Below are positions 3,696-38,996 of a DNA stretch of 64,000 bases, in pieces. The notes beneath the pieces were generated by a model. That model was not told where the DNA came from, made no database searches, and was given only the letters and a program-made list of their open reading frames with translations. The position numbers and the translations under genes are program-made. The stretch spans positions 4,326,220-4,390,219 of the forward strand of contig OX442435.1 of NCBI GenBank assembly GCA_949361645.1, written 5' to 3'. The DNA comes from Spongilla lacustris. Taxonomy: Eukaryota > Porifera > Demospongiae > Spongillida > Spongillidae. Each line of letters begins with the position of its first letter. Positions within the stretch are counted from its first letter, which is position 1.

Positions 3696-3749
3696 CTACA
3701 ATGTAAACATTGTCATTCGTATGAAGAAATCAGTATTTCAAAAAATTAC

Positions 3750-5463: not shown

Positions 5464-5564
5464 CTGGAAGAATTCAGTTTTACATTTGTTTCTTAATTAT
5501 TATTATTTATAGACAGAATATGTAATAAACACAACACTTAAATCACACTACAGTTAATTAAACT

Positions 5565-15648: not shown

Positions 15649-16202
15649 ACTCAAAAGATGGAGACTTTTAGGCTCTTCAAATTCTTGCAACACTAGATCT
15701 AGTAAACTGTTACCGGTGCATCCCTCATGATCAGGTGATATGCTAGGTGTGCACATTTTTGATGTGGGAGATCAGCAATTCGCAGTTTGTGGAGTAATTC
15801 ATATAAACTCAATATATATATGTACATGTACATGCATGGGATACCATGCACATGCATCATTATATCCACATCTGGTGTGCAAAGAAGTTAAACTAAAAGT
15901 GAATACCATGTAAATCAATACAGTTATAGCTTTATACATGATTTATGCAAAAATGTGCAAAACAGTTATTGTTGATCACAATAGTTATGGATGTTCCTGA
16001 TTCATGTGTTTACAGTACATATTTGGTCATGCATGTGGGATTGCTATTGTCCTTATTAAAATGCATGTGGTCTGTGGCATAATAATATATATTTACAAGA
16101 TATCTCTCTGAGAAAGTTAGTGGTATATAGGATTTGAAGGCAATGGTGGTGTAAAAAGGAAGGGAACAAGGGATCAACGATGGTACAATGTGTTTTTTAA
16201 TA
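15649..16202. other. non-coding flank of giant element
   Basis: No gene is visible. It ends in TTTTTTAA followed by the TA target (16201-16202) of the element that begins at 16203. Confidence 0.4.
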
Positions 16203-18469
16203 CAGGGTGTCCACGAATGAACGCAACGCTTTCGAACGAGAATAACTTTTGATAGGAGTAAGAAAAAAATCTCATATTTTGAAACCAAGTTGGTCGGTTT
16301 CCTCAAATTTTTTTACATCTATTAAGTTAATACATTATTAATCATGCTAATTAATTTTAATAAGCACAACAAATTAACTGAATTTGAAAGTTCGTATGTG
16401 TTCACATATCGATTGTGAAGCTTCGTTCAAAATTTTGGATTTTTTTTACATTCACAACTAAAACTACGACCCACTACTTATTCTTCTTCGCGTACGCTTG
16501 CGCACACGACCTCGTCCCAAGACTTATTTCGTGATTAAATAAGCAGTCTCAATCACGTGATACAATTCGGAGGCGGATCTTTTTTAAAAAGCAATGCCCC
16601 ACCTCCTACGTGGGTGTTACGAGCTAATTACATGTTTACATCCAATGTGGTGCGCACCAATTAGCACAATCGTACAGACAGACACTACTACGGGCTGATA
16701 AGAATTTGACATGCAATGCCATTCTGTGAGTTAGGAAACGGAGACGCACACGTGTATACACGCGTGTGTTATTACACACGCAAAAATCAAATCTAAAGAG
16801 ATTACAGCTCTCTCGGAGCTAATAGCCTACAGCAGCATCGCATCCCAAGCAGCACACAGTAATTTGTGCGCATATCTGATTTTGTCTCTTAGCTAGCTAC
16901 GTAGCTAAGATCCCGTCGAGCAAAACCAATGCTACGTATGGGTACTGCATGCCTGTGCCGGATTAAAGGATACTCTTGTGTTATGTGAAGTGCCATTTAA
17001 ATTTTAATACTGTAAGGAAAGCCTCATGTCATACATATGTGAAGGGTCAGAGAGCATTCAAGCCTCCATGCAGTAAAGTGATTAATTGTGCTTGCTGTTA
17101 AGCTAGGTATTTGCTTTGTAAATCTAATAAAGGGGTGCTTTCATTTATAATGTAACGTGAGCTTCTAGCTGTGAGTGTTATTAAGGTTAAAGGTAGTCTC
17201 TGCTTAAAAATACACCTGCAGGTTTAGATGATAGCAAAGGTTGCAGTTTTCAAGAAAACTGGGTACGAGCCTTATTTCTGTGTAGACCACCGATCTTTTT
17301 AACAAATTCTCGTAGTTGTGTTAGACTTTATTCAAAGCTAATGTTGCAAGCCTCCAGCAAAGTTTTAGATAATTTGTTTTTCTAAAGAGAAGGTGTGCAT
17401 TACTTTCAATGTTCATCCCAGATCTTTTTTGTTGCTGCTTGTGTATGGATGGCTCTCTTCTTTTTAAACAGACAGTTGTGATATAAGGGGGTGCTTTTGT
17501 TAAAAATCGCCAGCTAATGTTACAAGCCACCGGACAGATGATTGGATTTAAGAGCAGTGTCACTGTATCCCATTGCGAGCCTGTTAGCTAGCTTCGAACA
17601 CTTTCTAGCTGTGTTAACTGTGGCCTTTGCATATAGACTCTCTGGTTTTTTATGTGAGGGTGTGCTTAACTGTCTAATGTTGACCAGTAAGGATTGGGTA
17701 GTTTCCAGATCATAATGTGCTTCAGTATTTAAATGAGTCATGTTTTTATGTTAGGGGCCAATGCTTTCATTTTAGAGTATCAGCTGATATGTAAAGCCTT
17801 CGAGCTATGTTTTAGATAATATCACGCAAATAGTGCTGTTAGAGAGTTTGAGCTTTAATTTCAATTCATAAAGCTATGAGTTTCTTAGCAGATCACAATC
17901 TTAAAGTGAGCATCATGTTTTGGGCCTTGCTGTTAGCTACATGTAGTTCCCAGTTTATGATGTACGTTGCTGTTGCTTATGTAGGAGACTCCTGTTGCGG
18001 TATAGCAAGATTACAGCTAGGTTTTAGATGGTTGGATGTACGTGTGGTGCCACGTCTTAAGAGCAGCCTCTGCTTTAACAGAATCAAGTGTAATGTGCGC
18101 CTAGAAAGCTTTGTGTTCTTGAAAATGATTGTTAAAGCTACAAATTACACCTGTAGGAACTTGAGATCACTGGAAAGATGACTGGTTTAAGAGAGTGCAT
18201 GTGCTAAGTATCGGTACTTCTGAGGGTGTCCATTAGTTTCATACCATCCACTAATGTATTTGCACACAAAATGATTGTGCATGCTGTTGAAGTGTGTGTT
18301 TTTTTAGAGAGGTGTGTTTGTGATTGAGCCTTGTAGCTAGCTAGTTAGTTTGTTGTTGTATATGTATTATTCTCTTATTTGTTTCATAGGAAACTGCCAT
18401 TTTCATAGAACCGGGTAATGCATCATTGTTGCATGTTCCCAGGTCCTAGTGGACCAAATTTTTTTAAAT

Positions 18470-18500
<31 letters not shown>

Positions 18501-21500
18501 GGAGAGTTTGTTGTGTGCTTTGTGTGCTTTTAATACTTCTCCAGTAAATTAATGATTGTGGATGCTGTTGAGGTATGTAAACAACTGTGATAAATGAGAT
18601 GTGCTTTAAAATGGATGTGAGCTTTTATCTGTGTGTTATTAAAAGTATGGTTCTAGGTACAAATGACATAGTCTCTGCTTAAAAATATACCAGCCGTATT
18701 AAAGAAGGGTGTGCTTTGCATCATGGATCAGATAACTCAGATGAGCCTGCTGTGATTTGGGGGAGTGCTTTCATTTTATTACAAATATTAGCTAGGTTTC
18801 CAATGCTTGGATTTAAGAGTGGTGTCATTTTAGTTCCTTGGTCTAAGTTGGGATTTTAGGACAGGTTTGCTTGCAACAAGTTGCTTTTTTTATAGCTATT
18901 TTTTCCTGCATCATAATGTGTGCTAACTGCTGCATCTGGAAATAGACTCCCTGCATTAAGAGTTACTTCTTGTGAGGGTGTGCTTAGCTGTCTAATGTTG
19001 CAACCCATTAGATGATATTGCGTAGAGATGAGTCCATTGATCTTTTTTCAGTGCTCACCTACATGTACGCTAGTTCTGTGTACTGATTCGAATTTAGGGA
19101 AGGGCTCTCTCGTACATGTATTTAAGTGAGTCATCATTTTTAATGCTAGGAGCCGATGCTTTTATTTTAGACCATCAGCTCATTTGTCAAGCCAGCTATG
19201 TTTTGGATTGATTTCATGGGAAGAGTGCTGTTTTTTAAGATAAGTTATGCTTAATAAAGTTATGAGTCTTATAGCTAGTTACCAGATCACAAATGGTGCT
19301 GTTGTTTAAAGCATGGGTTAGCTCTCATCTTTAGGAGATACCAGTTGTGATTTGAAGAATTGCTTTAATGTTGCAAGTGGGTTTGTGATGTGGATTTAAG
19401 AGTGGTGTTATTTCGCCACATTGTGAGCAATTGTGTGTCGAATTAGTGGTAGAATCATTGCTTTAAGAGACTCCTAGGAAAAGCTCTATGTTATAAATGA
19501 GGGAGTGCTTTAATTCAAAATGTAATAGTATAGGCTTCTTTGTTTGTTATTGCACTAAAAGTAAAAAGTTTGCTGTTTTAAGAGAGTTGTACTTGCATTG
19601 TGATGTGAGCTTCTAAGCTAGTTCCAGGTCATAGTGTGTAATTGTTGTTCTTTAATTATGTTAACTCTTTACTTTTTAAGGTGTTCTAAAGCTTACGACC
19701 TCCAGTAAGGTTTAAAATGTTTGGGAAGTCAGCTGTACGTCTTAAGAGAGCATAATGTTTTGAGCCTAGCTGTTAGCTTAGATCGTAATATGTGCCATTG
19801 CTTGGTATGAGCTTTAGGAGACTCCTGTTGAGATGTGAAGGAGTGATTTCATTTAAAAGTATCCGCAAGCATAGGTTTTAGAAGTTCGAATGAAAGTTTG
19901 GTGCATGTCTTTGACAGTTGTTGTGACCCTTTTAGTTTATTTATTAATTTTTTTAGCCCGGGTGTTTATTAGAAAAACCTTGTTTTTGTGTTAAATGATT
20001 CATTCTGTAGGAACTTTAGATTATTGGAAAGATTATTGGTTTAAGAGAGGGACATTGCTAAGTTCCCACTGACATTGTGATGTGCTAAGTATCAGTAGTG
20101 TTTTGTTATGTGAGTGTGTGCTTTTAGTAAAGTAATAATTGTTATTAAGGTATGTAAACCATTGGGTTAAATGAGGTGTGCTTTCATTGAAAATGTAAAA
20201 ATCTGAGCTTCTTTCTGTGTGCTATTAGAAGTACATGTAGTCTCTGCTTAAAAATACACCTGTATATGCTGGGGAATGTTTGAAAGGTGGCTGTTGCATC
20301 ATGAGTCTGACAACTCAGACAATCCTGTTGTGGTTTGGGGGAGTACTTTCAGTACAAAATATCGGCACAAGTCATCAGCTACAGGTTCCATAGCTTGAAT
20401 TTAAGAGCAGTGTCATTGTAGTTCCTGGGTCTATAAGTTGGGGTTTCAATGAAGAGAACTGTTTTAGGACAGGTTTGCTTGCAACAAATTGTGAGTTTTT
20501 TATTTTCGTATCATAATGTGTTCTAACTGATGCTTATGGATATAGACCCTCTGCTTTAAGTGTTACTTTTAGTGAGGGTGTGTTAACTGTCTAATGTTAC
20601 ATTAGGTGATTGAGTAGATATGAATCCATCGATCCTTTCTAAGTACCTAAACTTGTTCTGAGATTATAATGTGTACTGGTATTAGGCTCTCTCATACACG
20701 CATTTTAATGCTTTCAGTCGATGCTTTTGTATTAGAGCATCAGCTCATCTGTCAAGCCTCCAGCTATGTCAGGAACAACAAATGCTCTTTTTAAGATTTT
20801 GCTTAATCAAGTTATGAGTCTTATAGCTAACAATCTGTGGTGCTGCTTAAGCATGCCTGTTGTGATTAGTGTTGCAAGTGCGTTTGCGATGCTTGAATTT
20901 AAGAGTAATGTAATAACACCATGTTGTGAGCAATTGTGTGCCAAAGTAGTGATAGAATCACTGCTTTATGAGACTGCACGGAAAAGCTCTATGTTAAATG
21001 AGGGGGTGTTTTCATTCAAAATGTAATGGTGCAGGCTTGTTACTAAAAGTTATTTGTTTTTAAAAAAAAGAGTTGTAATTCCAGATCAATGTGTGTAAGT
21101 GTTGTTTTTTATTTATGCATGCATGGTGACCCCTTGCTTTAACAGTCACCTGTTGTTATGTTGAGGTGTTCTAAAGCTTACGGTCTCCAGCAAGGTTTGG
21201 AAAGTCAGCTGCATGTCTTAAGAGAGCATGGGTAGGCTCATACCATGTTAGACTAAGGTGTTATGTGTGCTTCAAAATGTGTTTTGTTTGTGTTAAATGA
21301 TTCATGTGTTTTATTTTTATTTTTAAGTAAGGTTAAAGGTACAAGTTACATGTACACTCGTAGGAACTTGAGATTCTTGGAAAGATTAAGAGAGGGATGT
21401 TGTGAGCCACATACCTAAGCTCCCAGGACATTGTGCATTTGTAAATGTATATCAGTATCAAGTAATATCGGCAAAATTATTGTGCACGCTTTTGAGGTAC

Positions 21501-22746
21501 AAAAACCTGTGTTAAAAATGAGGGTGTGATTGTATTGAAAGCCTATAGCTGTGTTAGTTATAACTATTAAAAGTAAGGTTAGAGGTAGTCTCTGGTAAAA
21601 AATACACCTGTTTGTTTGGAGAAGATTCTAATTTTAAGACACCTTCCAGTAATGTAATTTGAACAATTTTCTGTGTTATGTTAAGGTTTGCTTGTTGTGA
21701 GCATAGAGATGTGTCACTGTGTGTATTTAACACGTAAGGTTAGAGGTAGTAATTATAAAAGAGGCGTTATTTGCATTAAGATTTCTAGTTCAGTTTTGTG
21801 CTTTCATTTAAAAGTTGCAAGCCTCCAGCTACATGTACATGTTGATTTCTAATGTAACATGTTGTGAGGTCCCACCTTAAATCAGTTTTCAGGTCATAGT
21901 TTGCTAAAGTATGGGTAGATGGGCTTGCAACTTCGTTGTTATGTGTTATTGTGCTTGCATTTAACATGTATGAACTAAACCGATGTACATGTTAGAAGCT
22001 CAAATTACACCTTCAATGAAAGCACACCCTCATTTAAAATGAATGTTTTTTAAGCAAACAGAATGATCAGTCATCTTGTGTGATGGTACATTATGCTACG
22101 TTAAAGCACACCCTCACATTCTATAAGCAGAGAGTCTGCACACCTCTCTTAAAAACATAAATCTTCCCCATACATTGTGCATATTTTCATATGCAGACTA
22201 AAGCTGTAAGCTATACATAACCAGGACACACATTCAGTGAATTTGAATGGACACCCAACCTTCAATATCATGTACATATCATGTACATGTACCTTGCCCT
22301 TGCTGAGTAAAACTTTGACAGATGGTGTGAACTCATATCAGTAACATCTCTCACAAGAAGGAACAATGCAAATCAAATTCATATAAAACCTACATTTAGT
22401 CATTTGCTATGAATGAAATTAGGTACCTGCATGTTTGTAAAGTGCTTCTAACATGTACAACAGGCCAAATGATGCACTGCACTGCACATACACCAATAGG
22501 AGAAACCATGCATCTACTCTGATAAACATAACAGGATCCTTGATTCTCAAAATCCACAATGGTAGCTCACTAAAAAGACATAACAGAATTGTAATGACTT
22601 TTAAAAAAAAAACTCTGTACATACCTTAACAGCACGAAAAATCATCTTCTATGGAATTAAAGCACACTCTGACTTAACAACAAAGCAGAACACACATGAA
22701 CTTCAATCATCAGCCTTCAAATCATCTGGGGGGTAGCTGGAGGTAT
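16203..22746 (+). repeat. left arm of giant inverted repeat
   Basis: The 6,544-bp arm begins with the mariner-like tip. Its inner part is made of at least four diverged units of about 1.36-1.57 kb. The phrase TCTCTGCTTAAAAATACACC or a close variant occurs near 17200, 18672, 20236 and 21592, and a GCTTTNATTTTAGA..ATCAGCT phrase occurs near 17760, 19150 and 20715. A 23-base G run sits at 18480-18502. ORFs of 60-101 residues (17321-17563, 17520-17741, 17876-18181, 20766-21026, 21785-21967, 22419-22622) recur in mirror image in the other arm. None has a recognised domain. Confidence 0.9.
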
Positions 22747-23084
22747 TTAGCATTAACCCTGTACATTATGATTATTGGGGTATTTTAAAGGGCTTTGCAG
22801 AGCCTTTTAAAAATAAAAACCCCACATTTACATTTGATCATTCAGTTTTGGTGTACATGTAATGATATAAGATTTGCCTTTTTAGTTTGCCCCCCCCCCC
22901 CCCCCCCCCCCACCTTGTTAAATTCTTAGACCAGGGGATGCTTCCATGTAAATGACACCTTAAGCCTGTTTTTTTTAAGGCACTTTGAAAATTTACAGAG
23001 CTTTGTTAGTTTCAGAAAAAGATTAAAGGATCACTTTATGAGCTCTATGATGATTGGAGAAAAGCAGTAATAGAACCAATAAAA

Positions 23085-23588
23085 ATGCAGGTGTGGCCCC
23101 AAGTTATAAAGGAGCCTATTGTCAATGAGGCTACTGCCACCTCAAGTGATCCAGGACTAATGCTTGACCTGGGAATCAGAGTTGTTTGGCAACCACAGGT
23201 GGAGGCGTTGTTTGATGTCCATGTCGTAGACACTGACGCCCCATCACACTGCCATCGAGCACCTAATGCCATTCTTGAGTCAAGCTCACTGGAGAAGAAG
23301 AGAATGTACAAAAAGGCAGTTGAAGACAGAAGAGGCACCTTCACCCCATTTGTCCTTTCAGTGGATGGACTACTTCACAAAGAGGCTAGTCACTTCCTAA
23401 AGTACATGGCCACTGCTCTGTCCTTCAAGTGGGACAAAGCCTATTCTATCACCAGCAGCTACATCAGATCACGGCTTGCTTTTGCAGGGGTTCGAGCAGT
23501 GAGCCTCTGTCTTAGAGGATCCGGCACCAAATGGAGAAGTGGACTGGGGTTTGATGATGGTGCTCCTCTGGCCTCATTCATGGAGTAA
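23085..23588 (+). CDS. retroelement C-terminal nuclease-like ORF, DLGIR-W type
   Basis: A 167-residue ORF with WPQVIKEPIVNEA, LDLGIRVVWQPQVEALFDVH, VVDTDAPSH, LEKKRMYKKA, FTPFVLSVDGLLHKEA and ALSFKWDKAYS, then CLRGSGTKWRSG and a stop after the GFDD block. I recognise this as the last domain of reverse-transcriptase ORFs repeated in cnidarian and sponge genomes. It is a distant relative in layout of the fragment at 5565-6083, with D..W..FDV resembling a PD-(D/E)XK nuclease (inference). No RT part lies upstream, so the start at 23085 is simply the first Met of a truncated copy. It lies inside the spacer of the giant element, either as a nested insertion or as cargo. Confidence 0.65.
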   Translation: MQVWPQVIKEPIVNEATATSSDPGLMLDLGIRVVWQPQVEALFDVHVVDTDAPSHCHRAPNAILESSSLEKKRMYKKAVEDRRGTFTPFVLSVDGLLHKEASHFLKYMATALSFKWDKAYSITSSYIRSRLAFAGVRAVSLCLRGSGTKWRSGLGFDDGAPLASFME

Positions 23589-23690
23589 ATCTATTGACTT
23601 ATTATTTCTCTTTATGATTACTTATCATCTAATTGTATGTATTTCATGTTTTTATTTTTATTAAAAATAAATAAATAAATAAATAAAATA

Positions 23691-23790
23691 GAAATGCAGG
23701 GATAGTTAACCAATAGAAATTCAGGGATTTTTAACCAATAGAAATGCAGGGGTAGTTGATCAATAGAAAAGCAGGGATAGTTGACCAATA
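23691..23790 (+). repeat. 25-bp tandem repeat, four copies
   Basis: Four successive 25-bp units of the type GAAATGCAGGGATAGTTAAC plus CAATA, with a few substitutions each. A degenerate fifth unit follows. It separates the two ORFs of the spacer. Confidence 0.8.
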
Positions 23791-23840
23791 GAATGCAGCA
23801 TTTGGAGACCAATTAAAAGTGCAGTTCCTATGTGTGAAGG

Positions 23841-24203
23841 ATGCCTCAAGCAGCAAGAGCCCATCGACTGACAATAGAGCAAAGAGCTGCAATAGTAAGG
23901 TTCTACTATGAGAATGCCTACCTCACAGTAAGCAGATTCAGGAGGGACTACCCAGCCTACACAACTTTGTGCCGAAGCACTGTGCTTAGGTTGGTATCTA
24001 AATTTGAGGAGCATGGGACCATGGAAAACAGACTTAAGCAGCATTGTGGAAGGAAGAAGTCTGTTAGAGTGCAAGCCAACGTTAACATCCATGCTCAGTG
24101 CATACAGAGGAATCCCCATCTCAGTACACGGCGCATTCAAGCTCACACAAGGCTCAAGAGGTCAAGCACACAGAAGATGTTGAAGAAGCACACACTCACA
24201 TAA
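23841..24203 (+). CDS. HTH (DUF4817/mariner-like) transposase N-terminal fragment
   Basis: A 120-residue ORF. Residues 10-60 read LTIEQRAAIVRFYYENAYLT, then FRRDYPAY, STVLRLVSKFEEHGTMENRL and an Arg/Lys-rich segment. This is the pattern of the DUF4817-type helix-turn-helix found at the N-terminus of IS630/mariner-like transposases in invertebrates. A second helical stretch (IQRNPHLSTRRIQAHTR) fits the second DNA-binding subdomain. The DDE catalytic domain is missing. At about 24185 the reading frame runs into DNA also present in the element's arm (near 27097), so the final residues (KKHTLT) come from the fusion. This agrees with the mariner-like tips and suggests a deleted parental transposase gene. 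Confidence 0.7.
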   Translation: MPQAARAHRLTIEQRAAIVRFYYENAYLTVSRFRRDYPAYTTLCRSTVLRLVSKFEEHGTMENRLKQHCGRKKSVRVQANVNIHAQCIQRNPHLSTRRIQAHTRLKRSSTQKMLKKHTLT

Positions 24204-24455
24204 CAAAACACTACTGATACTTAGCACATGCACAATGTCAGTGGGAACTTAGGTAGTGGCTCACAACGTCCCTCTCTTAAACCAATAATCTTTCCAATAA
24301 TCTAAAGTTCCTACAGAATGAATCATTTAACACAAAAACAAGGTTTTTCTAATAAACACCCGGGCTAAAAAAATAAATAAATAAACTAAAAGGGTCACAA
24401 CAACTGTCAAAGACATGCACCAAACTTTCATTCGAACTTCTAAAACCTAAATCTA

Positions 24456-27400
24456 ATACCTCCAGCTACCCCCCAGATGATTTGAAGGCTGATGATTGAA
24501 GTTCATGTGTGTTCTGCTTTGTTGTTAAGTCAGAGTGTGCTTTAATTCCATAGAAGATGATTTTTCGTGCTGTTAAGGTATGTACAGAGTTTTTTTTTTA
24601 AAAGTCATTACAATTCTGTTATGTCTTTTTAGTGAGCTACCATTGTGGATTTTGAGAATCAAGGATCCTGTTATGTTTATCAGAGTAGATGCATGGTTTC
24701 TCCTATTGGTGTATGTGCAGTGCAGTGCACCATTTGGCCTGTTGTACATGTTAGAAGCACTTTACAAACATGCAGGTACCTAATTTCATTCATAGCAAAT
24801 GACTAAATGTAGGTTTTATATGAATTTGATTTGCATTGTTCCTTCTTGTGAGAGATGTTACTGATATGAGTTCACACCATCTGTCAAAGTTTTACTCAGC
24901 AAGGGCAAGGTACATGTACATGATATGTACATGATATTGAAGGTTGGGTGTCCATTCAAATTCACTGAATGTGTGTCCTGGTTATGTATAGCTTACAGCT
25001 TTAGTCTGCATATGAAAATATGCACAATGTATGGGGAAGATTTATGTTTTTAAGAGAGGTGTGCAGACTCTCTGCTTATAGAATGTGAGGGTGTGCTTTA
25101 ACGTAGCATAATGTACCATCACACAAGATGACTGATCATTCTGTTTGCTTAAAAAACATTCATTTTAAATGAGGGTGTGCTTTCATTGAAGGTGTAATTT
25201 GAGCTTCTAACATGTACATCGGTTTAGTTCATACATGTTAAATGCAAGCACAATAACACATAACAACGAAGTTGCAAGCCCATCTACCCATACTTTAGCA
25301 AACTATGACCTGAAAACTGATTTAAGGTGGGACCTCACAACATGTTACATTAGAAATCAACATGTACATGTAGCTGGAGGCTTGCAACTTTTAAATGAAA
25401 GCACAAAACTGAACTAGAAATCTTAATGCAAATAACGCCTCTTTTATAATTACTACCTCTAACCTTACGTGTTAAATACACACAGTGACACATCTCTATG
25501 CTCACAACAAGCAAACCTTAACATAACACAGAAAATTGTTCAAATTACATTACTGGAAGGTGTCTTAAAATTAGAATCTTCTCCAAACAAACAGGTGTAT
25601 TTTTTACCAGAGACTACCTCTAACCTTACTTTTAATAGTTATAACTAACACAGCTATAGGCTTTCAATACAATCACACCCTCATTTTTAACACAGGTTTT
25701 TGTACCTCAAAAGCGTGCACAATAATTTTGCCGATATTACTTGATACTGATATACATTTACAAATGCACAATGTCCTGGGAGCTTAGGTATGTGGCTCAC
25801 AACATCCCTCTCTTAATCTTTCCAAGAATCTCAAGTTCCTACGAGTGTACATGTAACTTGTACCTTTAACCTTACTTAAAAATAAAAATAAAACACATGA
25901 ATCATTTAACACAAACAAAACACATTTTGAAGCACACATAACACCTTAGTCTAACATGGTATGAGCCTACCCATGCTCTCTTAAGACATGCAGCTGACTT
26001 TCCAAACCTTGCTGGAGACCGTAAGCTTTAGAACACCTCAACATAACAACAGGTGACTGTTAAAGCAAGGGGTCACCATGCATGCATAAATAAAAAACAA
26101 CACTTACACACATTGATCTGGAATTACAACTCTTTTTTTTTAAAAACAAATAACTTTTAGTAACAAGCCTGCACCATTACATTTTGAATGAAAACACCCC
26201 CTCATTTAACATAGAGCTTTTCCGTGCAGTCTCATAAAGCAGTGATTCTATCACTACTTTGGCACACAATTGCTCACAACATGGTGTTATTACATTACTC
26301 TTAAATTCAAGCATCGCAAACGCACTTGCAACACTAATCACAACAGGCATGCTTAAGCAGCACCACAGATTGTTAGCTATAAGACTCATAACTTGATTAA
26401 GCAAAATCTTAAAAAGAGCATTTGTTGTTCCTGACATAGCTGGAGGCTTGACAGATGAGCTGATGCTCTAATACAAAAGCATCGACTGAAAGCATTAAAA
26501 TGCGTGTATGAGAGAGCCTAATACCAGTACACATTATAATCTCAGAACAAGTTTAGGTACTTAGAAAGGATCGATGGATTCATATCTACTCAATCACCTA
26601 ATGTAACATTAGACAGTTAACACACCCTCACTAAAAGTAACACTTAAAGCAGAGGGTCTATATCCATAAGCATCAGTTAGAACACATTATGATACGAAAA
26701 TAAAAAACTCACAATTTGTTGCAAGCAAACCTGTCCTAAAACAGTTCTCTTCATTGAAACCCCAACTTATAGACCCAGGAACTACAATGACACTGCTCTT
26801 AAATTCAAGCTATGGAACCTGTAGCTGATGACTTGTGCCGATATTTTGTACTGAAAGTACTCCCCCAAACCACAACAGGATTGTCTGAGTTGTCAGACTC
26901 ATGATGCAACAGCCACCTTTCAAACATTCCCCAGCATATACAGGTGTATTTTTAAGCAGAGACTACATGTACTTCTAATAGCACACAGAAAGAAGCTCAG
27001 ATTTTTACATTTTCAATGAAAGCACACCTCATTTAACCCAATGGTTTACATACCTTAATAACAATTATTACTTTACTAAAAGCACACACTCACATAACAA
27101 AACACTACTGATACTTAGCACATCACAATGTCAGTGGGAACTTAGCAATGTCCCTCTCTTAAACCAATAATCTTTCCAATAATCTAAAGTTCCTACAGAA
27201 TGAATCATTTAACACAAAAACAAGGTTTTTCTAATAAACACCCGGGCTAAAAAAATTAATAAATAAACTAAAAGGGTCACAACAACTGTCAAAGACATGC
27301 ACCAAACTTTCATTCGAACTTCTAAAACCTATGCTTGCGGATACTTTTAAATGAAATCACTCCTTCACATCTCAACAGGAGTCTCCTAAAGCTCATACCA

Positions 27401-28701
27401 AGCAATGGCACATATTACGATCTAAGCTAACAGCTAGGCTCAAAACATTATGCTCTCTTAAGACGTACAGCTGACTTCCCAAACATTTTAAACCTTACTG
27501 GAGGTCGTAAGCTTTAGAACACCTTAAAAAGTAAAGAGTTAACATAATTAAAGAACAACAATTACACACTATGACCTGGAACTAGCTTAGAAGCTCACAT
27601 CACAATGCAAGTACAACTCTCTTAAAACAGCAAACTTTTTACTTTTAGTGCAATAACAAACAAAGAAGCCTATACTATTACATTTTGAATTAAAGCACTC
27701 CCTCATTTATAACATAGAGCTTTTCCTAGGAGTCTCTTAAAGCAATGATTCTACCACTAATTCGACACACAATTGCTCACAATGTGGCGAAATAACACCA
27801 CTCTTAAATCCACATCACAAACCCACTTGCAACATTAAAGCAATTCTTCAAATCACAACTGGTATCTCCTAAAGATGAGAGCTAACCCATGCTTTAAACA
27901 ACAGCACCATTTGTGATCTGGTAACTAGCTATAAGACTCATAACTTTATTAAGCATAACTTATCTTAAAAAACAGCACTCTTCCCATGAAATCAATCCAA
28001 AACATAGCTGGCTTGACAAATGAGCTGATGGTCTAAAATAAAAGCATCGGCTCCTAGCATTAAAAATGATGACTCACTTAAATACATGTACGAGAGAGCC
28101 CTTCCCTAAATTCGAATCAGTACACAGAACTAGCGTACATGTAGGTGAGCACTGAAAAAAGATCAATGGACTCATCTCTACGCAATATCATCTAATGGGT
28201 TGCAACATTAGACAGCTAAGCACACCCTCACAAGAAGTAACTCTTAATGCAGGGAGTCTATTTCCAGATGCAGCAGTTAGCACACATTATGATGCAGGAA
28301 AAAATAGCTATAAAAAAAGCAACTTGTTGCAAGCAAACCTGTCCTAAAATCCCAACTTAGACCAAGGAACTAAAATGACACCACTCTTAAATCCAAGCAT
28401 TGGAAACCTAGCTAATATTTGTAATAAAATGAAAGCACTCCCCCAAATCACAGCAGGCTCATCTGAGTTATCTGATCCATGATGCAAAGCACACCCTTCT
28501 TTAATACGGCTGGTATATTTTTAAGCAGAGACTATGTCATTTGTACCTAGAACCATACTTTTAATAACACACAGATAAAAGCTCACATCCATTTTAAAGC
28601 ACATCTCATTTATCACAGTTGTTTACATACCTCAACAGCATCCACAATCATTAATTTACTGGAGAAGTATTAAAAGCACACAAAGCACACAACAAACTCT
28701 C

Positions 28702-28732
<31 letters not shown>

Positions 28733-30999
28733 ATTTAAAAAAATTTGGTCCACTAGGACCTGGGAACATGCAACAATGATGCATTACCCGGTTCTATGAA
28801 AATGGCAGTTTCCTATGAAACAAATAAGAGAATAATACATATACAACAACAAACTAACTAGCTAGCTACAAGGCTCAATCACAAACACACCTCTCTAAAA
28901 AAACACACACTTCAACAGCATGCACAATCATTTTGTGTGCAAATACATTAGTGGATGGTATGAAACTAATGGACACCCTCAGAAGTACCGATACTTAGCA
29001 CATGCACTCTCTTAAACCAGTCATCTTTCCAGTGATCTCAAGTTCCTACAGGTGTAATTTGTAGCTTTAACAATCATTTTCAAGAACACAAAGCTTTCTA
29101 GGCGCACATTACACTTGATTCTGTTAAAGCAGAGGCTGCTCTTAAGACGTGGCACCACACGTACATCCAACCATCTAAAACCTAGCTGTAATCTTGCTAT
29201 ACCGCAACAGGAGTCTCCTACATAAGCAACAGCAACGTACATCATAAACTGGGAACTACATGTAGCTAACAGCAAGGCCCAAAACATGATGCTCACTTTA
29301 AGATTGTGATCTGCTAAGAAACTCATAGCTTTATGAATTGAAATTAAAGCTCAAACTCTCTAACAGCACTATTTGCGTGATATTATCTAAAACATAGCTC
29401 GAAGGCTTTACATATCAGCTGATACTCTAAAATGAAAGCATTGGCCCCTAACATAAAAACATGACTCATTTAAATACTGAAGCACATTATGATCTGGAAA
29501 CTACCCAATCCTTACTGGTCAACATTAGACAGTTAAGCACACCCTCACATAAAAAACCAGAGAGTCTATATGCAAAGGCCACAGTTAACACAGCTAGAAA
29601 GTGTTCGAAGCTAGCTAACAGGCTCGCAATGGGATACAGTGACACTGCTCTTAAATCCAATCATCTGTCCGGTGGCTTGTAACATTAGCTGGCGATTTTT
29701 AACAAAAGCACCCCCTTATATCACAACTGTCTGTTTAAAAAGAAGAGAGCCATCCATACACAAGCAGCAACAAAAAAGATCTGGGATGAACATTGAAAGT
29801 AATGCACACCTTCTCTTTAGAAAAACAAATTATCTAAAACTTTGCTGGAGGCTTGCAACATTAGCTTTGAATAAAGTCTAACACAACTACGAGAATTTGT
29901 TAAAAAGATCGGTGGTCTACACAGAAATAAGGCTCGTACCCAGTTTTCTTGAAAACTGCAACCTTTGCTATCATCTAAACCTGCAGGTGTATTTTTAAGC
30001 AGAGACTACCTTTAACCTTAATAACACTCACAGCTAGAAGCTCACGTTACATTATAAATGAAAGCACCCCTTTATTAGATTTACAAAGCAAATACCTAGC
30101 TTAACAGCAAGCACAATTAATCACTTTACTGCATGGAGGCTTGAATGCTCTCTGACCCTTCACATATGTATGACATGAGGCTTTCCTTACAGTATTAAAA
30201 TTTAAATGGCACTTCACATAACACAAGAGTATCCTTTAATCCGGCACAGGCATGCAGTACCCATACGTAGCATTGGCTTTGCTCGACGGGATCTTAGCTA
30301 CGTAGCTAGCTAAGAGACAAAATCAGATATGCGCACAAATTACTGTGTGCTGCTTGGGATGCGATGCTGCTGTAGGCTATTAGCTCCGAGAGAGCTGTAA
30401 TCTCTTTAGATTTGATTTTTGCGTGTGTAATAACACACGCGTGTATACACGTGTGCGTCTCCGTTTCCTAACTCACAGAATGGCATTGCATGTCAAATTC
30501 TTATCAGCCCGTAGTAGTGTCTGTCTGTACGATTGTGCTAATTGGTGCGCACCACATTGGATGTAAACATGTAATTAGCTCGTAACACCCACGTAGGAGG
30601 TGAGGCATTGCTTTTTAAAAAAGATCCGCCTCCGAATTGTATCACGTGATTGAGACTGCTTATTTAATCACGAAATAAGTCTTGGGACGAGGTCGTGTGC
30701 GCAAGCGTACGCGAAGAAGAATAAGTAGTGGGTCGTAGTTTTAGTTGTGAATGTGAAAAAAATCCAAAATTTTGAACGAAGCTTCACAATCGATATGTGA
30801 ACACATACGAACTTTCAAATTCAGTTAATTTGTTGTGCTTATTAAAATTAATTAGCATGATTAATAATGTATTAACTTAATAGATGTAAAAAAATTTGAG
30901 GAAACCGACCAACTTGGTTTCAAAATATGAGATTTTTTTCTTACTCCTATCAAAAGTTATTCTCGTTCGAAAGCGTTGCGTTCATTCGTGGACACCCTG
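24456..30999 (-). repeat. right arm of giant inverted repeat
   Basis: The inverted copy of 16203-22746. Mirrored ORFs (24580-24783, 25235-25417, 26177-26437, 29021-29326, 29461-29682, 29639-29881) match their left-arm partners almost residue for residue. It carries a 22-base C run (28701-28722) opposite the 23-base G run of the left arm. The outer 120 bp holds the tip followed by an AAAAGTTATTCTCGTTCG-type subterminal segment. Confidence 0.9.
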
Positions 31000-31026
31000 T
31001 ATATAATTATATAATTATATATATAT

Positions 31027-32690
31027 GGGACAGTGTCCAGCAAAATCGGGCTTGTGGCGTTATAATTTTATCACTATAAAAATTGTACGTTACACTTAAC
31101 AGCACATCTTCGCAACGGTACAACCTTTTCCTTTCAAATTTCGTACACTTGTTCCCACACCATTTCTCTCTGTGGAAATCGATTTTTGTAATCTACGTAT
31201 TTTCCGTGCAGCGGGTACAGCATTCGTTAACCTCGCGGGCTAGAAATCCACATTTCTCGAGGTGCGAGTGTTGAAAACGCGTCAAATTCGGAACATACAT
31301 AGTGAAGTCCTGTAGCTATTGATTTGTTCAGATCGTTGATTTGTATATTATCCGTAACGGTAATATGGCAGTGCAAAGTTAGTGCATATTTCCCGCTCGA
31401 TTCGCGCCACCAATGTATCCTAACGCGCTTCCCGTTCTTCCGAGCACATGAATATGCAATTTATATCTGGCTCCGCCTATTCTCCGCCCCAAAGACCCAG
31501 TACCACTTTTGCTTGCTGGAAATTAAAGTGGAAACAATCTCGTTACGGCTGGCTTTGACTTTACAACTAGCGATTAGCGAAGTAAAGTTAACAAGTAATC
31601 GAGGCGATCGTGCAATGCACGTGGACTCTCGTGCCAACTTGGTACGTACGCACTCATAGCCACATTATAATACATCGCAGACATCAGGAGGGTGGTGATT
31701 GATTCATTTAGGAAAAGGCTTTCCGGGGACAAGTACGATTGCTAAGCCTTACTGTATACTACATGTACTATAAGTCTTGCTGCCTTCTTTGCACAACGTT
31801 AGCAACACAAACTAGTGCTATGGTGCAGTGCCAGTTATAAGAAGTGCTGTTACTGTGCTTGTAAAGTAGTGCTATGGTGTTGTGCTTGTGAAGTAGTGCC
31901 ATTGTGCAGTACCCGTTATGGTGCTGAAGTAGTGCCATGCATGGGTGAAGTAGTGCTATGGTGCTGATTGTGTAGTGCTATGGTGCTGCATTTATGAAGC
32001 AGAGTGCCTCTGTGTGACGTAGTGCTATGGTGCAGTACTAGTGAAGTAGTGCCATCGTTCTGTGCTTGTGAAGTAGTGCTATGGTGCTGATTGCATATTG
32101 ATATGGTGCAGTGCTTGTGACATAGTGTTATGGTGCAGTGCTTGTGACGTAGTGCTATGGTACAGTGCTTGTGACGTAGTGCTATGGTGCAGTGCTTGTG
32201 ACATAGTGCTATGGTGCAATGCTTGTGACGTGCTATGGTGCAGTGCTTGTGACGTAGTGCTATGGTGCAGTGCTTGTGCAAGGAAGCAAGGGCCATGGGG
32301 GCCATTACCCCCATTTTATTGTCACAGGGGGGCATTGTCCCCCCTCCCCCCCTCACCTTTATTCAGTACGATCTATACACCATCCTAAAATTTATGTCAG
32401 GTCCTCAGCCTATAGACATGCACATTTATTTGTACCCCCCACCTTTAAATACCTTACTACACACCTGATGGTGGCACCGTGCTTCTGAAGTAGTGCTATG
32501 CTTGCTGTGGTGCTTATTGTGTAGTGCTATGGTGCTGCGTTTATCAAGTAGTGATATTGTGCAGTGCTAAGCAATGCTATGGTGCTGTGTTTGTGAAGCA
32601 TGTGAAGTAGTGCTATGGTGTTGTGCATGTGAAGTAGTGCCATCCCTGTTATGGTGCCGAAGTAATGCCATGGGTGAATTATGTGTGCTG
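31027..32690 (+). repeat. left terminal inverted repeat of giant foldback element
   Basis: This segment is mirrored by 38997-40660. It begins with the conserved tip, includes unit-length sequence shared with the family (GATTTGTT, CCGTAACGG, GATTCGCGCCA), then a 27-bp minisatellite (GTGACGTAGTGCTATGG type, about 32100-32280) and a G/C-rich block at 32280-32370. One 1-bp indel separates the two sides near 31452/40236. Confidence 0.85.
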
Positions 32691-33222
32691 ATTGTGTAGT
32701 GCTAAGGTGCTGATTGTGTAGTGCTAAGGTGCTGATTGTGTAGTGCTATGGTGCTGATTGTGTAGTGCTATGGTGCTGATTGTGTAGTGCTATGGTGTTG
32801 ATTGTGTAGTGCCATGGTGCTGATTGTGTAGTGCTATGGTGCTGATTGTGTAGTGCTATGGTGCTGATTGTGTAGTGCTATGGTGCTGATTGTGTAGTGC
32901 TATGGTGCTGATTGTGTAGTGCCATGGTGCTGATTGTGTAGTGCTAAGGTGCTGATTGTGTAGTGCTAAGGTGCTGATTGTGTAGTGCTATGGTGCTGAT
33001 TGTGTAGTGCTGTGGTGCTGATTGTGTAGTGCTATTGTGCTGATTGTGTAGTGCCATGGTGCTGATTGTGTAGTGCTATGGTGCTGATTGTGTAGTGCTA
33101 TGGTGCTGATTGTGTAGTGCTATGGTGCTGATTGTGTAGTGCTATGGTGCTGATTGTGTAGTGCCATGGTGCTGATTGTGTAGTGCTATGGTGCTGATTG
33201 TGTAGTGCTGTGATGCTAATAG
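32690..33222 (+). repeat. 22-bp minisatellite array, left
   Basis: About 24 copies of a 22-bp unit with core GATTGTGTAGTGCTATGG, spacing almost constant and point variants such as GCTAAGG and GCCATGG. It has no spacers of varied sequence, so it is not a CRISPR array. It appears in reverse complement at 37440-38060. Confidence 0.9.
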
Positions 33223-34140
33223 TGTAATGCTATGGTTCTGCATTTATGAAGTAGGGCTATGGTGCAGTGTTTGTGACGTAGTGCTATGGGTTAGCCATCC
33301 TAAAAGTTCTAATATAGATCAGATCTCTCCCCCCTCCCCCCTTGGCCTATAGACATGCTCATTTATATGCACCCCCACCTTCCTACACGCCTGATGGTGC
33401 TATACTTGTGAAGTAGTGCTATGGTGCAGTGACTGTGAAGGAGTGCTTGGTACAGTGGCTGTGATGTAGTGCTATGGTGCAGTGCTTGTGCGAGGAAGCA
33501 AGGGCCATGGGGGCCATTGCCTCCATTTTATTGTTGTAGAGGGGCATTGCCCCCCCTCCCCCCTCACCTTTATTCTGTATGATGTTTAAAAAGTATAAAT
33601 GGAGGGGGGAGGGGGGGGGGAAGTGGTATACGCCATCCTAAGTCAGGTCCTCAACCTATAGACACACTTATTTATTTGTACCCCCCACCTTTAAATACCT
33701 TCCTACACACCTGATGGTGGCACTGTGCTTCTGAAGTAGTACCATGGTGCTATGCTTGTGAAGTGGTGCTGTGGTGCTTATTGTGTAGTGCTATGGGCTG
33801 TGTTTATCAAGTAGTGTTTTTGTGCAATGCTATGGTGCTGTGTTTGTGAAGCATGTGAAGTAGTGCTATAATGTTGTGCATGTGAAGTAGTGCCATCCAT
33901 GTTTAGTGCTGAAGTAGTGCTATGGTGCTGATTTTGTAGTGCTATGGTGCGATTGTGTAGTGCTATGGTGCTGATTGTGTAGTGCTATGGTGCTGATTGT
34001 GTAGTGCTATGGTGCTGATTGTGTAGTGCTATGGTGCTGATTGTGTAGTGCTATGGTGTTGTGCCTGTGAAGTAGTGCTATTGTGCAGCGCCTGTTAAGA
34101 AGTGCTAGTATAGTGCTGTGCTTGTGAAATAGTGCTTTTT
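33223..34140 (+). repeat. mixed minisatellite and G/C-rich blocks, left
   Basis: Degenerate GTAGTGCTATGG units interrupted by two blocks with C-runs and the words CTATAGACAT and CACCTGATGG. The block at about 33480-33720 matches 38177-38440 inverted. A short 22-bp array follows at about 33930-34070. No gene. Confidence 0.75.
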
Positions 34141-35780
34141 ATGGTGGACTACTACAGATCAAAGACAACTTGTTACCCATTTTGTTTCAGGAGTATTGGT
34201 AATTGCTATAGGAAGGTTAGCCCTTAATCCTCATTTAATGCTGTCTGAATGCTCCCTCATGCTTGGTAGCTACGTGTGCTCTGATCGTGATACCCATTGC
34301 GCTTGACATAATTTACAGTTTGCCCAAAAGGGGGGTAGGCAACAGCCGGTCAGTCGGGTGTGCGTAAGGGTGCTGACCCCCTACCCTGAGCCTGACTGGA
34401 ACCAAGGGAAACGCTGGTCCCCATTAGGTCAGCCCCACCCCTTGATGCTGGTCAAGGTAAGGTGGTTAGGTCAGGGTAGAAGCCCGAAGGGTGCCGCCTA
34501 CCATTGATGTGCAAGTAAGAACACAGCAAACATGTGTACAAGTACAGTCAGTGCACAGGTGGAGTGGTGGGTGGGTAAACAATGCAGCTGGCAGACTTGG
34601 CTTTGGACTGAGTGATTGCTGCCCACCCTACCATCCTTTATATACATGTGTGACCTGGAACCATATCAGGTGTCAATATCTTTGGGGACAGTGTGTTAGA
34701 TTGGATGAGGGGATTAGTTTAATGTAAGTGAGACTTATCCCAGACTTTAAGGCTTTAGGTTTGAATGGAGGAGAGGCTTTCCCTAGGCTCAGGTTTGAAT
34801 GGAAGTGAGGCTTTCCCAGGGGGTACAACCCTGGGGATTTTAGCATATTGCTCGCATACCCCCAAAACATTAAACCAAGTTTAGTACCTAAACCAACACT
34901 TGAAAAGACAACAGTTTGCACCACCTATCCTCATTTTAATTAGGAATGGGCTTGTGACTCATGTACACATCTGATGCTCCTTGAAATCTTCCTTTTTGAA
35001 AGCGTACTACACCTTTAATTAATGTTCATGTATAGTTTACAGCCCCCTAGCCTTTTAATGGGGTGCAATGCCCAAGCAATACACATGTAGCTTCCATGGC
35101 ACAAGGTGCACCTTGAACTGATGCCATGCAGGCCAGGTCACCACTTAATGGCTGCATGGGAAATATGGTCAAGGTGACTCAGATGGAAACAATAGATGGT
35201 CTTTAAAGCAAGCTATGACCACCTCGGCCATCATGCAGCTATAGTGACCACCTCAGTGTGGAGCTATGTCTCCTGACCACTCCAAAACTTGCCAAAGCTG
35301 TTATCCAACTGGTACATGGGAAAGGCAATGGCTCTAGACTTGCCCATCACTTCTCACCTCTTCATTTAACCCCCTAGCACTATTGGAAGTGAGGGTACCC
35401 AGGTCAATACATACTGCCAATGACACCTTGTGAAGCCTAAGATACGGAGGCACCAGCTATAAGCTTGCCTCACCTCTTGCCACCACCTCTAAATTCCAAA
35501 AGCTATCCTTACCCAGACTGCCAACCCTGATGTACATTAGTGATTGCTTTGATTGCTTGTGTGTGTTCTACATCTGTGATTGTGTGTGTATATGTGCCTG
35601 CATATGTGTGTGTGTGTCTGTACGTGTGTGTGTTTGCAAATTCTAAGTGGTGCCCCTCATACATGGCCCCTATTTCATCTAGGGAGCTGAGCAACATACT
35701 CTGAATATTTGAATAGTAGCTCATATAGTACAAGAGCAGTGTTGAGATTTTTTTTTTTAAGTCCAGGTTTCACAGGGGTA
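34141..35780. other. unique interior of giant foldback element
   Basis: About 1.6 kb without the minisatellite. Visible items are two near-copies of an AGGTTTGAATGGA..GAGGCTTTCCC phrase (about 34757-34818) and a CTGACC/GGTCAG-rich patch at 34360-34480. No ORF has domain content. It might be captured host DNA or the remnant of an autonomous ancestor, but I cannot tell which. Confidence 0.4.
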
Positions 35781-35781
35781 G

Positions 35782-36330
35782 AAGCTTTGGAAGCCTTGCA
35801 TATGTTAGCAGTGAATATTATTGCTAACCTATCACTACAGATTATGGCAGGTCTGGGCCACTGGAAAGTTTACATAGACTGTGTTCACAACCAACAAGCT
35901 TGTTATTTCTTATAGTGCAGTGCTTGTAAGGTAGTGCTATGATGCAGTGTTTGTGAAGTTGTGCTATGGTGCTGTGCTTGTGAAGTGCTTTTTCACAGGC
36001 ACAGCACCATAGCACTACTTCACAAGCACTGCACCATAGCACTGCTTCACAGGCACTGCAACAATAGCACTGCAAAATAGCACTTCTTGATAAAACAGCA
36101 CCATAGAAAGCACCATAGCACTACTTCATAAGCATAGCACCAAGGCACTAACAGGTGCGAAGGAAGGTATATAAAGTTGGGGGGTGCAAAAAAAAGAGCT
36201 CACACAGTACAAGATCAGTCCTTCACAGAAGCAGCTTTGGAAGCCTCGCATATGGTGGCAGTGAATATTATTGTTAACCTATCACTACAGATTATGGCAG
36301 GACTGGGCCACTGGAAAGTTTACATAGACT
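35782..36330 (+). repeat. 98-bp direct repeat flanking a minisatellite strand switch
   Basis: Near-identical segments at 35782-35880 and 36233-36330 (AGCTTTGGAAGCC through TTTACATAGACT), 451 bp apart. Between them the minisatellite changes strand at about 35990, where TGTGAAGTGCTTTTTCACAG forms a tight hairpin. This is the structural centre of the palindrome. Confidence 0.8.
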
Positions 36331-37439
36331 GAATGGTAATAGTGTTCACATACCAGCTGAATGGTAAGTGTTCACGTTCAAATACAAATACATGTACACC
36401 AACAAATTTCCCAGCTTGAACATGTATGTTATTTAAAAAAGCACTTCACAAGCACCATAGCACTACTTCACAGGCACAGCACCATAGCACAGCATCACAG
36501 GGACTGCACCATAGCACTATTTCACACTGTGGAGGGGGGTCCCAATGGCCCCCATACTTCCTTTGCCACTGACCATAGCACTATGTCATAAATGCAGCAC
36601 CATAGCACTACACAATCAGCACCATAGCATTACTTCACAGGCACAGCACCATAGCACTACTTCAACACCATAGCATTACACTTTTAGCACCATAGCACTA
36701 CTTCACAAGCACTGCATCATACCACTACACAATGGCACCATAGCACTACACAATCAGCACCATATCAGCACCATAGTACTGCACAATCAGCACCATAGCA
36801 CCACTACACTGTACTTCACAAGCATAGCACATACCATGGCACCATAGCACTACACAATCAGCACACATAGCATTACACAATCAGCACCATAGCACTACAC
36901 AATCAGCACCCTTGTACTACACAATCAGCACACATACTTCACCCATGGCATTACTTCAGCACCATAATAGGGATGGCACTACTTCACATGCACAACACCA
37001 TAGCACTACTTCACATGCACAACATCATAGCACTACTTCACATACTTCACAAACACAGCACCACAGCATTGCTTAGCACTGCACAATATCACTACTTGAT
37101 AAGTGCAGCACCATAGCACTACACAATAAGCACCACAACACTACTTCACTAGTATAGCACCAAGGCACTACTTCAGAAGGACAGCACCATCAGGCGTGTA
37201 GGAAGGTGGGGGGTGCAAATAAATGAGCATGTCTATAGGCCGAGGGGGGAGGGGGAAGAGATCTGACCTACGTTTAGGATGGTGTGTGGCACACCCCTCC
37301 CCCCACCATTTATACTCTTATACATGGTACTGTGGAGGGGGTGGGGGGGGGGGGGGGGGGGGGGGGGGGCTATGGTCCCAATGGCCCCCATACTTCTTAT
37401 GCCATTGACCATAGCACTACTTCACAAACACTTAACCAT
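36331..37439 (-). repeat. degenerate minisatellite, right
   Basis: Units of the type CACCATAGCACTACTTCACA, in the opposite orientation to the left side, with irregular spacing. It includes a G-run of 27 bases at 37343-37369 and G/C-rich blocks similar to those at 33310-33370. Confidence 0.8.
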
Positions 37440-38060
37440 AGCATGCCATAAATGCAGCACCATAGCACTACATAATCAGCACCATAGCAGTATACAATCA
37501 GCACCATAGCACTACACAATTAGCACCATGGCACTACACAATTGGCACCATAGCACTACACAATCGGCACCATAGCACTACACAATCAGCACCATAGCAC
37601 TACACAATCAGCACCATAGCACTACACAATCAGCACCATAGCACTACACAATCAGCACCATAGCACTACACAATCAGCACCATAGCACTACACAATCAGC
37701 ACCATAGCACTACACAATCAGCACCATAGCACTACACAATCAGCACCATAGCACTACACAATCAGCACCTTAGCACATACCATGGCACCATAGCACTACA
37801 CAATCAGCACCATAGCACTACACAATCAGCACCATAGCACTACACAATCAGCACCATAGCACTACACAATCAGCACCATAGCACTACACAATCAGCACCA
37901 TAGCACTACACAATCAGCACCATAGCACTACACAATCAGCACCATAGCACTACACAATCAGCACCTTAGCACATACCATGGCACCATAGCACTACATAAT
38001 CAACACCATAGCACTACACAATCAGCACCATAGCACTACACAATCAGCACCATAGCACTA
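37440..38060 (-). repeat. 22-bp minisatellite array, right
   Basis: About 27 copies of the 22-bp unit in reverse complement (CACAATCAGCACCATAGCAC type). A variant spacer GCACCTTAGCACATACCATG interrupts the array at about 37764 and again at about 37960, which points to block duplication within the array. Confidence 0.9.
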
Positions 38061-38996
38061 TTTCACCCATGGCACTACTTCAGCACTAAACAGGGATGGC
38101 ACTAATTCACATGCTTCACAAACACAGCACCATAGCACTACACAATAAGCACCACAGCACCATAGCACTACTTCAGAAGCACAGTGCCACCATCAGGTGT
38201 GTAGGAAGGTATTTAAAGGTGGGGGGTATAAATAAATAAGTGTGTCTATAGGTTGAGGACCTGACTCAGAAATTTTAGGATGGCGTATACCACTTCCCCC
38301 CCCCCCCCCCACTCCCCCCTCCATTTATACTTTTATACATCATACAGAATAAAGGTGAGGGGGGGGAGGGGGGGCAATGCCCCCTTATGACAATAAAATG
38401 GAGGCAATGGCCCCCATGGCCCTTGCTTCCTCGCACAAGCACTGCACCATAGCACTACTTCTGAACAAACACTGCACCATAGCACTACTTCACAAACCAT
38501 AGCACTACTTCATAAATGTAACACCATAGCGCTACACAATAAACACCACAACACTACTTCACTAGTATAGCACCAAGGCACTACTTCAGAAGGACAGCAC
38601 CATCAGGCATGTAGGAAGGTGGGGGTGCAAATAAATGAGCATGTCTATAGGCCGAGGGGGGAGGGGGGAGAGATCGGATTTTTAGGATGGCATGTAGCAC
38701 CCCCCCCCCCCCCTCCATTTATATATGGTACTGGTGGAGGGGGTGGAGTGGGGGCTATGGCCCCAATGGTACTCATACGCCCTATGCCACTGACCTATAG
38801 CATTACATGTACATGTGTACTTCACAAACACTGCACCATAGCACTACTTCATAAATGCAGCACCATAGCAGTATACAATCAGCACCATAGCACTACACAA
38901 TCAGCACCATAGCACTACACAATCAACACATTAGCACTACATGTACACTGTACTTCACAAGCATAGCACATACCATGGCACCATAGCACCACAAAA
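38061..38996 (-). repeat. mixed minisatellite and G/C-rich blocks, right
   Basis: The inverted counterpart of the left-side blocks, with C-runs at 38296-38310 and 38699-38713 and the repeated phrase GCACCATCAGGC. Degenerate units continue to the terminal repeat. No gene. Confidence 0.75.

Follow-up and report, generated by a model that had tools for sequence, protein, structure and literature searches.

A mariner-type transposon family with multi-kilobase palindromic arms in the sponge Spongilla lacustris

Palindromes with multi-kilobase arms are usually considered unstable, and the best-known long palindromes whose similarity is maintained by copying between the arms are those of sex chromosomes. 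A 64-kb stretch of the genome of the sponge Spongilla lacustris (contig OX442435.1, positions 4,326,220 to 4,390,219; hereafter the window, which contains no N) carries a palindrome of this kind at positions 16203-30999, where two almost identical inverted arms are bounded by the tips of a mariner-type transposon. This copy is labelled C22. The question raised by the locus is whether the entire palindrome is a mobile element, as proposed in the first-pass annotation of the window, or whether the tips and the long arms have separate origins. Analysis of the window and of a 248.56-Mb assembly (51 contigs) indicates that C22 is very probably a non-autonomous member of a cut-and-paste family of the ITm (IS630-Tc1-mariner) group, with giant palindromic arms, movement as a whole unit, copying between the arms and growth that would be driven by repair.

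Architecture of the C22 palindrome

The element (14,797 bp, delimited by the inverted alignment and by the genome-wide family) consists of a left arm (16203-22746, forward strand), a spacer (22747-24455, forward strand, bounded by the alignment) and a right arm (24456-30999, reverse strand), which is an inverted version of the left one. Each arm has 6,544 bp, and the two account for 13.1 of the 14.8 kb. Both ends carry the same inverted tip, CAGGGTGTCCACGAATGAACGCAACGC, as expected of the ITm group, and each is bordered by a TA dinucleotide (16201-16202 and 31000-31001), read as the target duplication, whose length of 2 bp was demonstrated in four other members and not in C22 itself. Within the window CAGGGTGTCC occurs solely at 16203 (forward) and 30990-30999 (reverse). 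Comparison of 16197-22754 with the inverted 31006-24450 revealed 99.86% identity across 6,560 bp; over their 6,544 bp the arms differ by 4 mismatches (arm positions 245, 397, 723 and 6270) and 2 one-base indels. A near-perfect inverted repeat of 6.5 kb is far beyond chance. The exact tips with TA on both sides of a 14.8-kb unit, the nearly base-for-base agreement of the arms and the constant positional sum (16203+30999 = 22746+24456 = 47202, valid at the tips and at the inner ends) had all been reported in the first-pass annotation and were borne out.

The arms also contain internal direct repeats (approximately 81-82% identity), and the element has a foldback-like structure, being dominated by very long terminal inverted repeats (TIRs) with internal repeats. 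A search of the arm for second copies of the tip motifs, as possible repeated transposase-binding sites, allowed up to 4 mismatches and turned up no more than two weak, partial matches. The arms are strand-asymmetric at 17000-22000 and 25000-30000, with a GC skew of up to 0.29 on the left and -0.36 on the right, and T exceeds A on the left arm.

A family of palindromic elements

Genome-wide, 287 sites match a tip pattern of 28 bases with at most 2 mismatches (144 forward and 143 reverse), and the reversed control pattern gave 0 and 0 matches. Positions were listed for the first 100 of these sites (all exact, C1 to C10), the other 187 being counted only. Among the listed tips there are 34 inverted pairs spanning 5.9-18.3 kb (median of 12.3 kb), none of them below 5.8 kb; short elements with the family tips, which the first-pass annotation had named as the observation that would speak against a single long unit, were absent from this set. 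The genome search that it had suggested, with the outermost 200 bp as the query, gave 40 scored matches (out of 415 candidates), 20 of which form ten inverted pairs 11.6-14.8 kb apart. Pooled, the similarity matches fall into at least 48 loci, at least 19 of them with both orientations; copy counts from the similarity searches are lower bounds, with about 40 candidates scored per search.

Ten members (C22 and nine others) were read from tip to tip, and two more, C9a and C9b, were added for the comparison of tips and open reading frames (ORFs). In 9 of the 10 members the longest inverted match extends over 3.5 to 6.5 kb at 93.4-99.9% identity. In the remaining one, C5a, the left arm is largely deleted and an inverted match of 1.6 kb (98.8%) persists. 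The left tip of C5b is damaged, and the right tip of C10 falls in N. One copy of the frequent 12.1-12.3-kb size class, which was sampled in part, has inverted arms that are 94.5% identical over 889 bp and whose sequence is largely different. Spacer inversions were considered for C18 and C5a and dropped, as a palindromic element simply sits in either orientation. C9a and C9b (L049 and L050; C9:716527-726526 and C9:638332-648331) are near-identical, share a common flank and lie 78 kb apart; they are probably a segmental duplication carrying one member and not two insertions.

Insertion of whole palindromes at TA

For nine members the two flanks were joined with one TA removed and used as queries against the genome, and 40 of 3,428 candidates were scored. 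All 40 cross a whole joint: 33 places for C14 (96-99% identity), four for C20 (238/238), two for C1b and one for C1a. One empty site of each of these four members was aligned, and in all four the joint is exact, with a 2-bp duplication of TA within TATATA, as in ITm elements. The 12 members together have 20 intact tips, each preceded by TA and 19 of them by TATA; a 4-bp TATA duplication of the kind known from Sailor is, despite this, ruled out by the empty sites. The flanks differ from member to member, except in the C9a/C9b pair. Because the joints are exact at all four sites, the 12-14-kb palindromes were inserted as whole units at TATATA targets with a 2-bp TA duplication. The earlier suggestion that the entire unit moved is upheld for C22 by its family membership and by these four sites, each of which takes a complete palindrome. 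The empty-site check suggested there succeeded for 4 of the 9 members queried, but not for C22.

Copying between the arms

A tree was calculated for the outer 3.3 kb of 21 arms (the left arm of C5a, deleted there, was dropped, and C9a and C9b contributed one arm each). In 9 of the 9 members with both arms included, the two arms of the same element are sisters. They differ by 0.00-0.32% in seven of the nine, by 1.33% in C1b and by 2.53% in C18, and the nearest pair of different members is 0.80% apart (with C9a/C9b, at 0.03%, set aside). In several members the mismatches between the arms are confined to patches (C2, C20, C14 and C5b). In a MAFFT alignment of the C2 arms, all 18 mismatches fall within the inner 231 bp, the outer 4,219 bp having none (Fisher p 4e-24), and none of the 17 arm mismatches of C20 falls between 151 and 3,334 (p 6e-12). 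In C1a, 3 of 5 arm mismatches lie at 3748-3756. The sister position of the arms in all nine members, together with the patchy mismatches, therefore argues that the arms have been copied onto each other.

Growth of the C22 arms

The right arm is approximately 3.9 kb long in C10, C1a and C20, and the segment corresponding to C22 arm positions 3922-6545 is found in them, where present, only on the left side. In C22 this segment (20124-22746, forward strand; single copy in C10, C1a and C20) has a mirror copy at 24456-27078 and has been recruited into the palindrome. Just inside the right arm lies a remnant, the inner end of the former right arm (24186-24449, reverse strand), which is 94.7% identical to the inverted 19872-20123 and from which C10, C1a and C20 continue to the tip. 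C22 leaves the old arm after CCTA, at the point where the other three continue in it: the old arm is cut at about arm position 3670, 264 bp from its inner end, and is followed by a 6-bp filler (24450-24455), after which the sequence of the left arm is duplicated from position 6545 out to the tip. A 27-mer spanning this join occurs once in the genome when up to 2 mismatches are allowed. Over the outermost 3.3 kb, the divergence of the new right arm is 0.09% from the left arm of the same element and about 1% from C10 and C1a, the nearest of the other copies compared. Judged from these alignments, a copy of the left arm, longer than the old right arm, has taken the latter's place in C22, lengthening the arms from about 3.9 to 6.5 kb, in agreement with the earlier suggestion that the unit grew.

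The transposase and its loss in C22

The spacer contains a truncated transposase ORF (23841-24203, forward strand; 120 aa) with a helix-turn-helix (HTH) domain, DUF4817 (Pfam, E 2.3e-9). Its first 117 codons are homologous to the transposase of C14, and the frame then runs into arm sequence. The first-pass annotation had noted an internal HTH ORF of the matching transposase type; the type is right, but the ORF is a fragment and the copy is non-autonomous. Nor is the spacer entirely the element's own sequence, since part of it (23088-23656, forward strand, followed by an A-rich stretch) is another, dispersed repeat inserted into it. This repeat, retroposon-like in appearance, is present also in C10, C1a and C20, and 34 of the 40 candidates scored (out of 649) are further genome copies of it with 93-96% identity.

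An intact transposase ORF of 364 aa is carried between the arms of C14. Its Pfam matches are DUF4817 (E 2e-12), DDE_3 (E 5e-5) and HTH_Tnp_Tc3_2 (E 3e-3), the latter two under the curated cut-offs, and its catalytic triad is D167-D258-D295, with 36 residues separating D258 and D295 (DD36D). Searched against PDB by sequence, it matches Sleeping Beauty alone (E 1.6e-7). For a relative with 64% identity, the structure prediction (mean pLDDT 85, pTM 0.64) has Mos1 as its best PDB match (E 7e-13), followed by Sleeping Beauty, and all 18 matches with E ≤0.001 are Mos1, Sleeping Beauty or SETMAR. The combination of an HTH and an RNase H-like DDE/D domain that characterizes ITm transposases is thus present in the family, though not in the truncated copy of C22. 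The placement of the unit in the mariner group holds as regards these ITm features, but the spacing is DD36D and not the DD34D of mariner proper. Pogo-type elements have a CENP-B/psq DNA-binding domain, and the P superfamily has a THAP-domain transposase. At Pfam E ≤1 neither a CENP-B/psq domain, in the place of which DUF4817 is found, nor the THAP domain typical of Galileo and the P superfamily was detected in the C14 transposase. The TA duplication and DD36D likewise differ from the TATA duplication and DD82E of Sailor. The DD36D signature has been named as pogo/Mover (PMC8472432).

In C22, C10, C1a, C20 and C18 the transposase frame breaks at one common place, after codon 117, because the downstream part was lost together with the inner right arm. 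Since five members share the loss of the transposase end and four share the inserted repeat, movement continued after the loss, and these five copies presumably moved in trans. Other transposase frames were also found: an open frame of 379 aa lies between arm matches in C6 (known by positions only), and at locus L052 inverted arms packed with 46-bp tandem repeats enclose a transposase-related frame of 365 aa. Within this genome, transposases of this group may often be accompanied by long repeated arms. At L051 a related transposase lies between inverted arms composed of 35-bp tandem repeats, and the disrupted transposase region of C5a (L043 with L044) contains a 605-aa open frame with a piggyBac-type look by eye.

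Proposed mechanism and alternative explanations

In the mechanism proposed here, the transposase would bind the identical tips, excise the entire palindrome and insert it at a TA. Excision would leave a double-strand gap, and this gap, or a break within an arm, would then be repaired by synthesis off a sister copy. As the arms would be interchangeable as templates, such repair could copy one onto the other, and a copying strand that had switched to the other arm could pass the former inner limit of the arm ahead of end joining. Arm-switched repair of this kind would keep the arms alike and enlarge the palindrome at the expense of the spacer, and copies without a transposase would then be mobilised in trans. 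In the case of C22, one end may have copied the right tip, switched template to the left arm and overrun the old boundary before end joining. A wider idea is put forward tentatively, as slightly less probable than even: transposition-coupled repair would be the very engine of palindrome upkeep and growth, each round copying an arm, ratcheting the boundary inward and swallowing spacer, with whole units spreading.

It is hardly credible that the tips are those of a short mariner-like element of the ordinary kind, caught up by chance in a separate inverted segmental duplication that gave rise to the 6.5-kb arms. Tc1/mariner elements are typically 1.3-2.5 kb long, according to an excerpt of PMC8533490, and the C22 transposase is just a fragment; however, ten members at ten different sites have kilobases of family arm between their tips (with a damaged left tip in C5b, a right tip in N in C10 and most of the left arm lost in C5a), the 34 listed tip pairs include none below 5.8 kb, and the empty sites of four members, which span the whole unit, contradict such an origin. 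It is very improbable, too, that the palindromes are artefacts of assembly or reads (fold-back reads or misjoined haplotypes). The right tip of C10 does run into N, and in the matching published assembly the contig N50 is 0.3 Mb (excerpt of PMC12141999), but the arms differ at particular places, the spacers are single copy within the element, the flanks vary by site, the pre-insertion sites of four members are present elsewhere in the genome, and the window itself has no N. The longer right arm of C22 could also have been acquired by recombination with a second, separate element copy instead of its own left arm. The genome contains many similar copies, yet the new arm is 0.09% from its own left arm versus about 1% from C10 and C1a, which makes this origin improbable. 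A somewhat stronger candidate, although still an unlikely one, is that the palindrome is re-made at each jump through a hairpin or single-strand intermediate, with one arm templating the other, and not by gap repair or conversion after insertion. The differences of 0.00-0.32% within seven of nine members would fit this, as would the spread differences of C18 and C1b, which look as if they had gathered after a clean start. On the other hand, the patchy mismatches of C2, C20, C14 and C5b fit partial copying, the transposase is of the DDE cut-and-paste type, and the C22 join resembles end joining with filler.

Several observations weigh against a family that moves as whole units, copies its arms and grows by gap repair. 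The gap-repair step would rest on a single junction. The 40 candidates scored (out of 3,428) included none that matched the joined flanks of C22, C18, C2, C5a or C5b, which is no proper test of these members, and the empty site of C22 was also not found in a C22-specific search, in which 4 copies of the flank repeat were examined; these copies stop before the C22 joint because the repeat's own end adjoins the insertion point. The mismatch count of C2 depends on the alignment near small gaps (10 over the whole arm by BLAST versus 18 by MAFFT), and the 4 mismatches of C22 are not clustered at the inner arm end. The 104 arm differences of C18 and the 48 of C1b are scattered over the length of the arm, hence homogenisation is not continuous in every copy. 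It is also not universal for the palindromic architecture, as judged from a related family (63% identity in the transposase HTH). In its copy C2:19006800, the one copy measured, the left side is 79% alike to its own inverted partner over 769 bp. The same left side is 91-94% alike to five other left sides (others down to 83%), and the right sides of four other copies are 76-80% alike to it.

The flank of C22 itself, at 16052-16202 on the left, is a dispersed short repeat, which elsewhere occurs in inverted pairs approximately 150 bp apart.

Comparison with known elements

Galileo of Drosophila has TIRs of 18-1,250 bp that are internally repetitive, vary greatly in length among copies and are extended by recruiting internal sequence (PMC3573991). 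It shares with the sponge family the long repetitive TIRs and their lengthening from internal sequence, but has a P-type transposase and 7-bp end sequences, whereas the sponge family has arms of mostly 3.5-6.5 kb, an ITm transposase and a TA duplication. In the Dromar mariner miniature inverted-repeat transposable elements (MITEs) of Drosophila the 3' part is replaced by 5' sequence, resulting in unusually long TIRs (PMC4161770). The replacement of an arm by sequence of the opposite end is common to both, although Dromar elements are MITE derivatives of ordinary mariners, while in the sponge a large family is characterised by long arms. Lengthened TIRs combined with an ITm transposase are also known from LTIR DD40-41D of aphids (about 460 bp; PMC5490172), Tec of ciliates (about 700 bp; PMC7325037) and Sailor DD82E (up to 1,362 bp, with a mostly TATA duplication; PMC8533490), but these TIRs are approximately 3 to 14 times shorter than the sponge arms and the D-D/E spacings are different.

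The domain order matches that of the DUF4817 transposases of other animals. Relatives of the transposase (partial) are 50-74% identical in the freshwater sponge Ephydatia muelleri, which has the nearest of the named ones, up to 91% identical on ENA contigs and about 31-37% identical in named arthropods. A survey of the literature on kilobase-scale ITm TIRs and on sponge elements (including the main text of PMC7385117), which left subscription papers and preprints mostly uncovered, found no such family, and nothing on such elements was found in titles and the beginnings of abstracts under the domain name DUF4817. Foldback-like TIRs, TIR extension from internal sequence and arm replacement are, as the cited papers describe, already known in principle; what appears to be new in the ITm group, as far as this survey reaches, is how large the arms are, that they evolve in concert and that the whole family is palindromic. 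The arms of C22 are approximately 5 times longer than the longest ITm TIR in the cited literature (1,362 bp in the excerpt of PMC8533490). The family provides a natural set of palindromes, as many as about 143 if all tips are paired, at varied sites and of varied ages in one genome, with less homogenised relatives as a contrast. How palindromes are maintained, grow and break, and whether a mariner-type transposase can mobilise 12-15-kb foldback DNA, thereby become directly testable questions.

Other features of the window and genome

Each arm contains an ORF of 101 aa (17876-18181, forward strand; mirror 29021-29326, reverse strand), for which a Pfam search gave no match. The frame is open in 9 of the 12 members (C22, C1a, C20, C18, C10, C2, C1b, C9a and C9b), the open frames being without a common start, and broken in C5a, C5b and C14. 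Its pN/pS relative to C22 is 0.41-0.82, calculated from just 3-17 differences, too few to separate coding from chance. No arm gene is claimed, because the frame is broken in C14, the member with the intact transposase; the candidate additional gene was dropped, with coding neither demonstrated nor excluded.

Other inverted repeats were observed in the window, at 45252-45845 versus 46179-46765 (95% identity) and as a palindrome at 730-1432 (86%). Elsewhere in the genome, C3:4115809-4128401 and C3:4299653-4312250 are mirror-image matches with equal or nearly equal scores, approximately 180 kb apart, and represent either a large inverted duplication or an assembly problem. Directly beside C22 lies a second foldback element (31016-40671), with 1.86-kb ends that are 97.4% identical, mirrored arrays of 22- and 27-bp repeats and the tips TATATATGGGACAGTGTCC. 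When 300 bp of its end were used as a query, many inverted pairs about 8-12 kb apart were found at 98-100% identity among the 40 of 1,730 candidates scored, and this element therefore represents a second young giant-foldback family.

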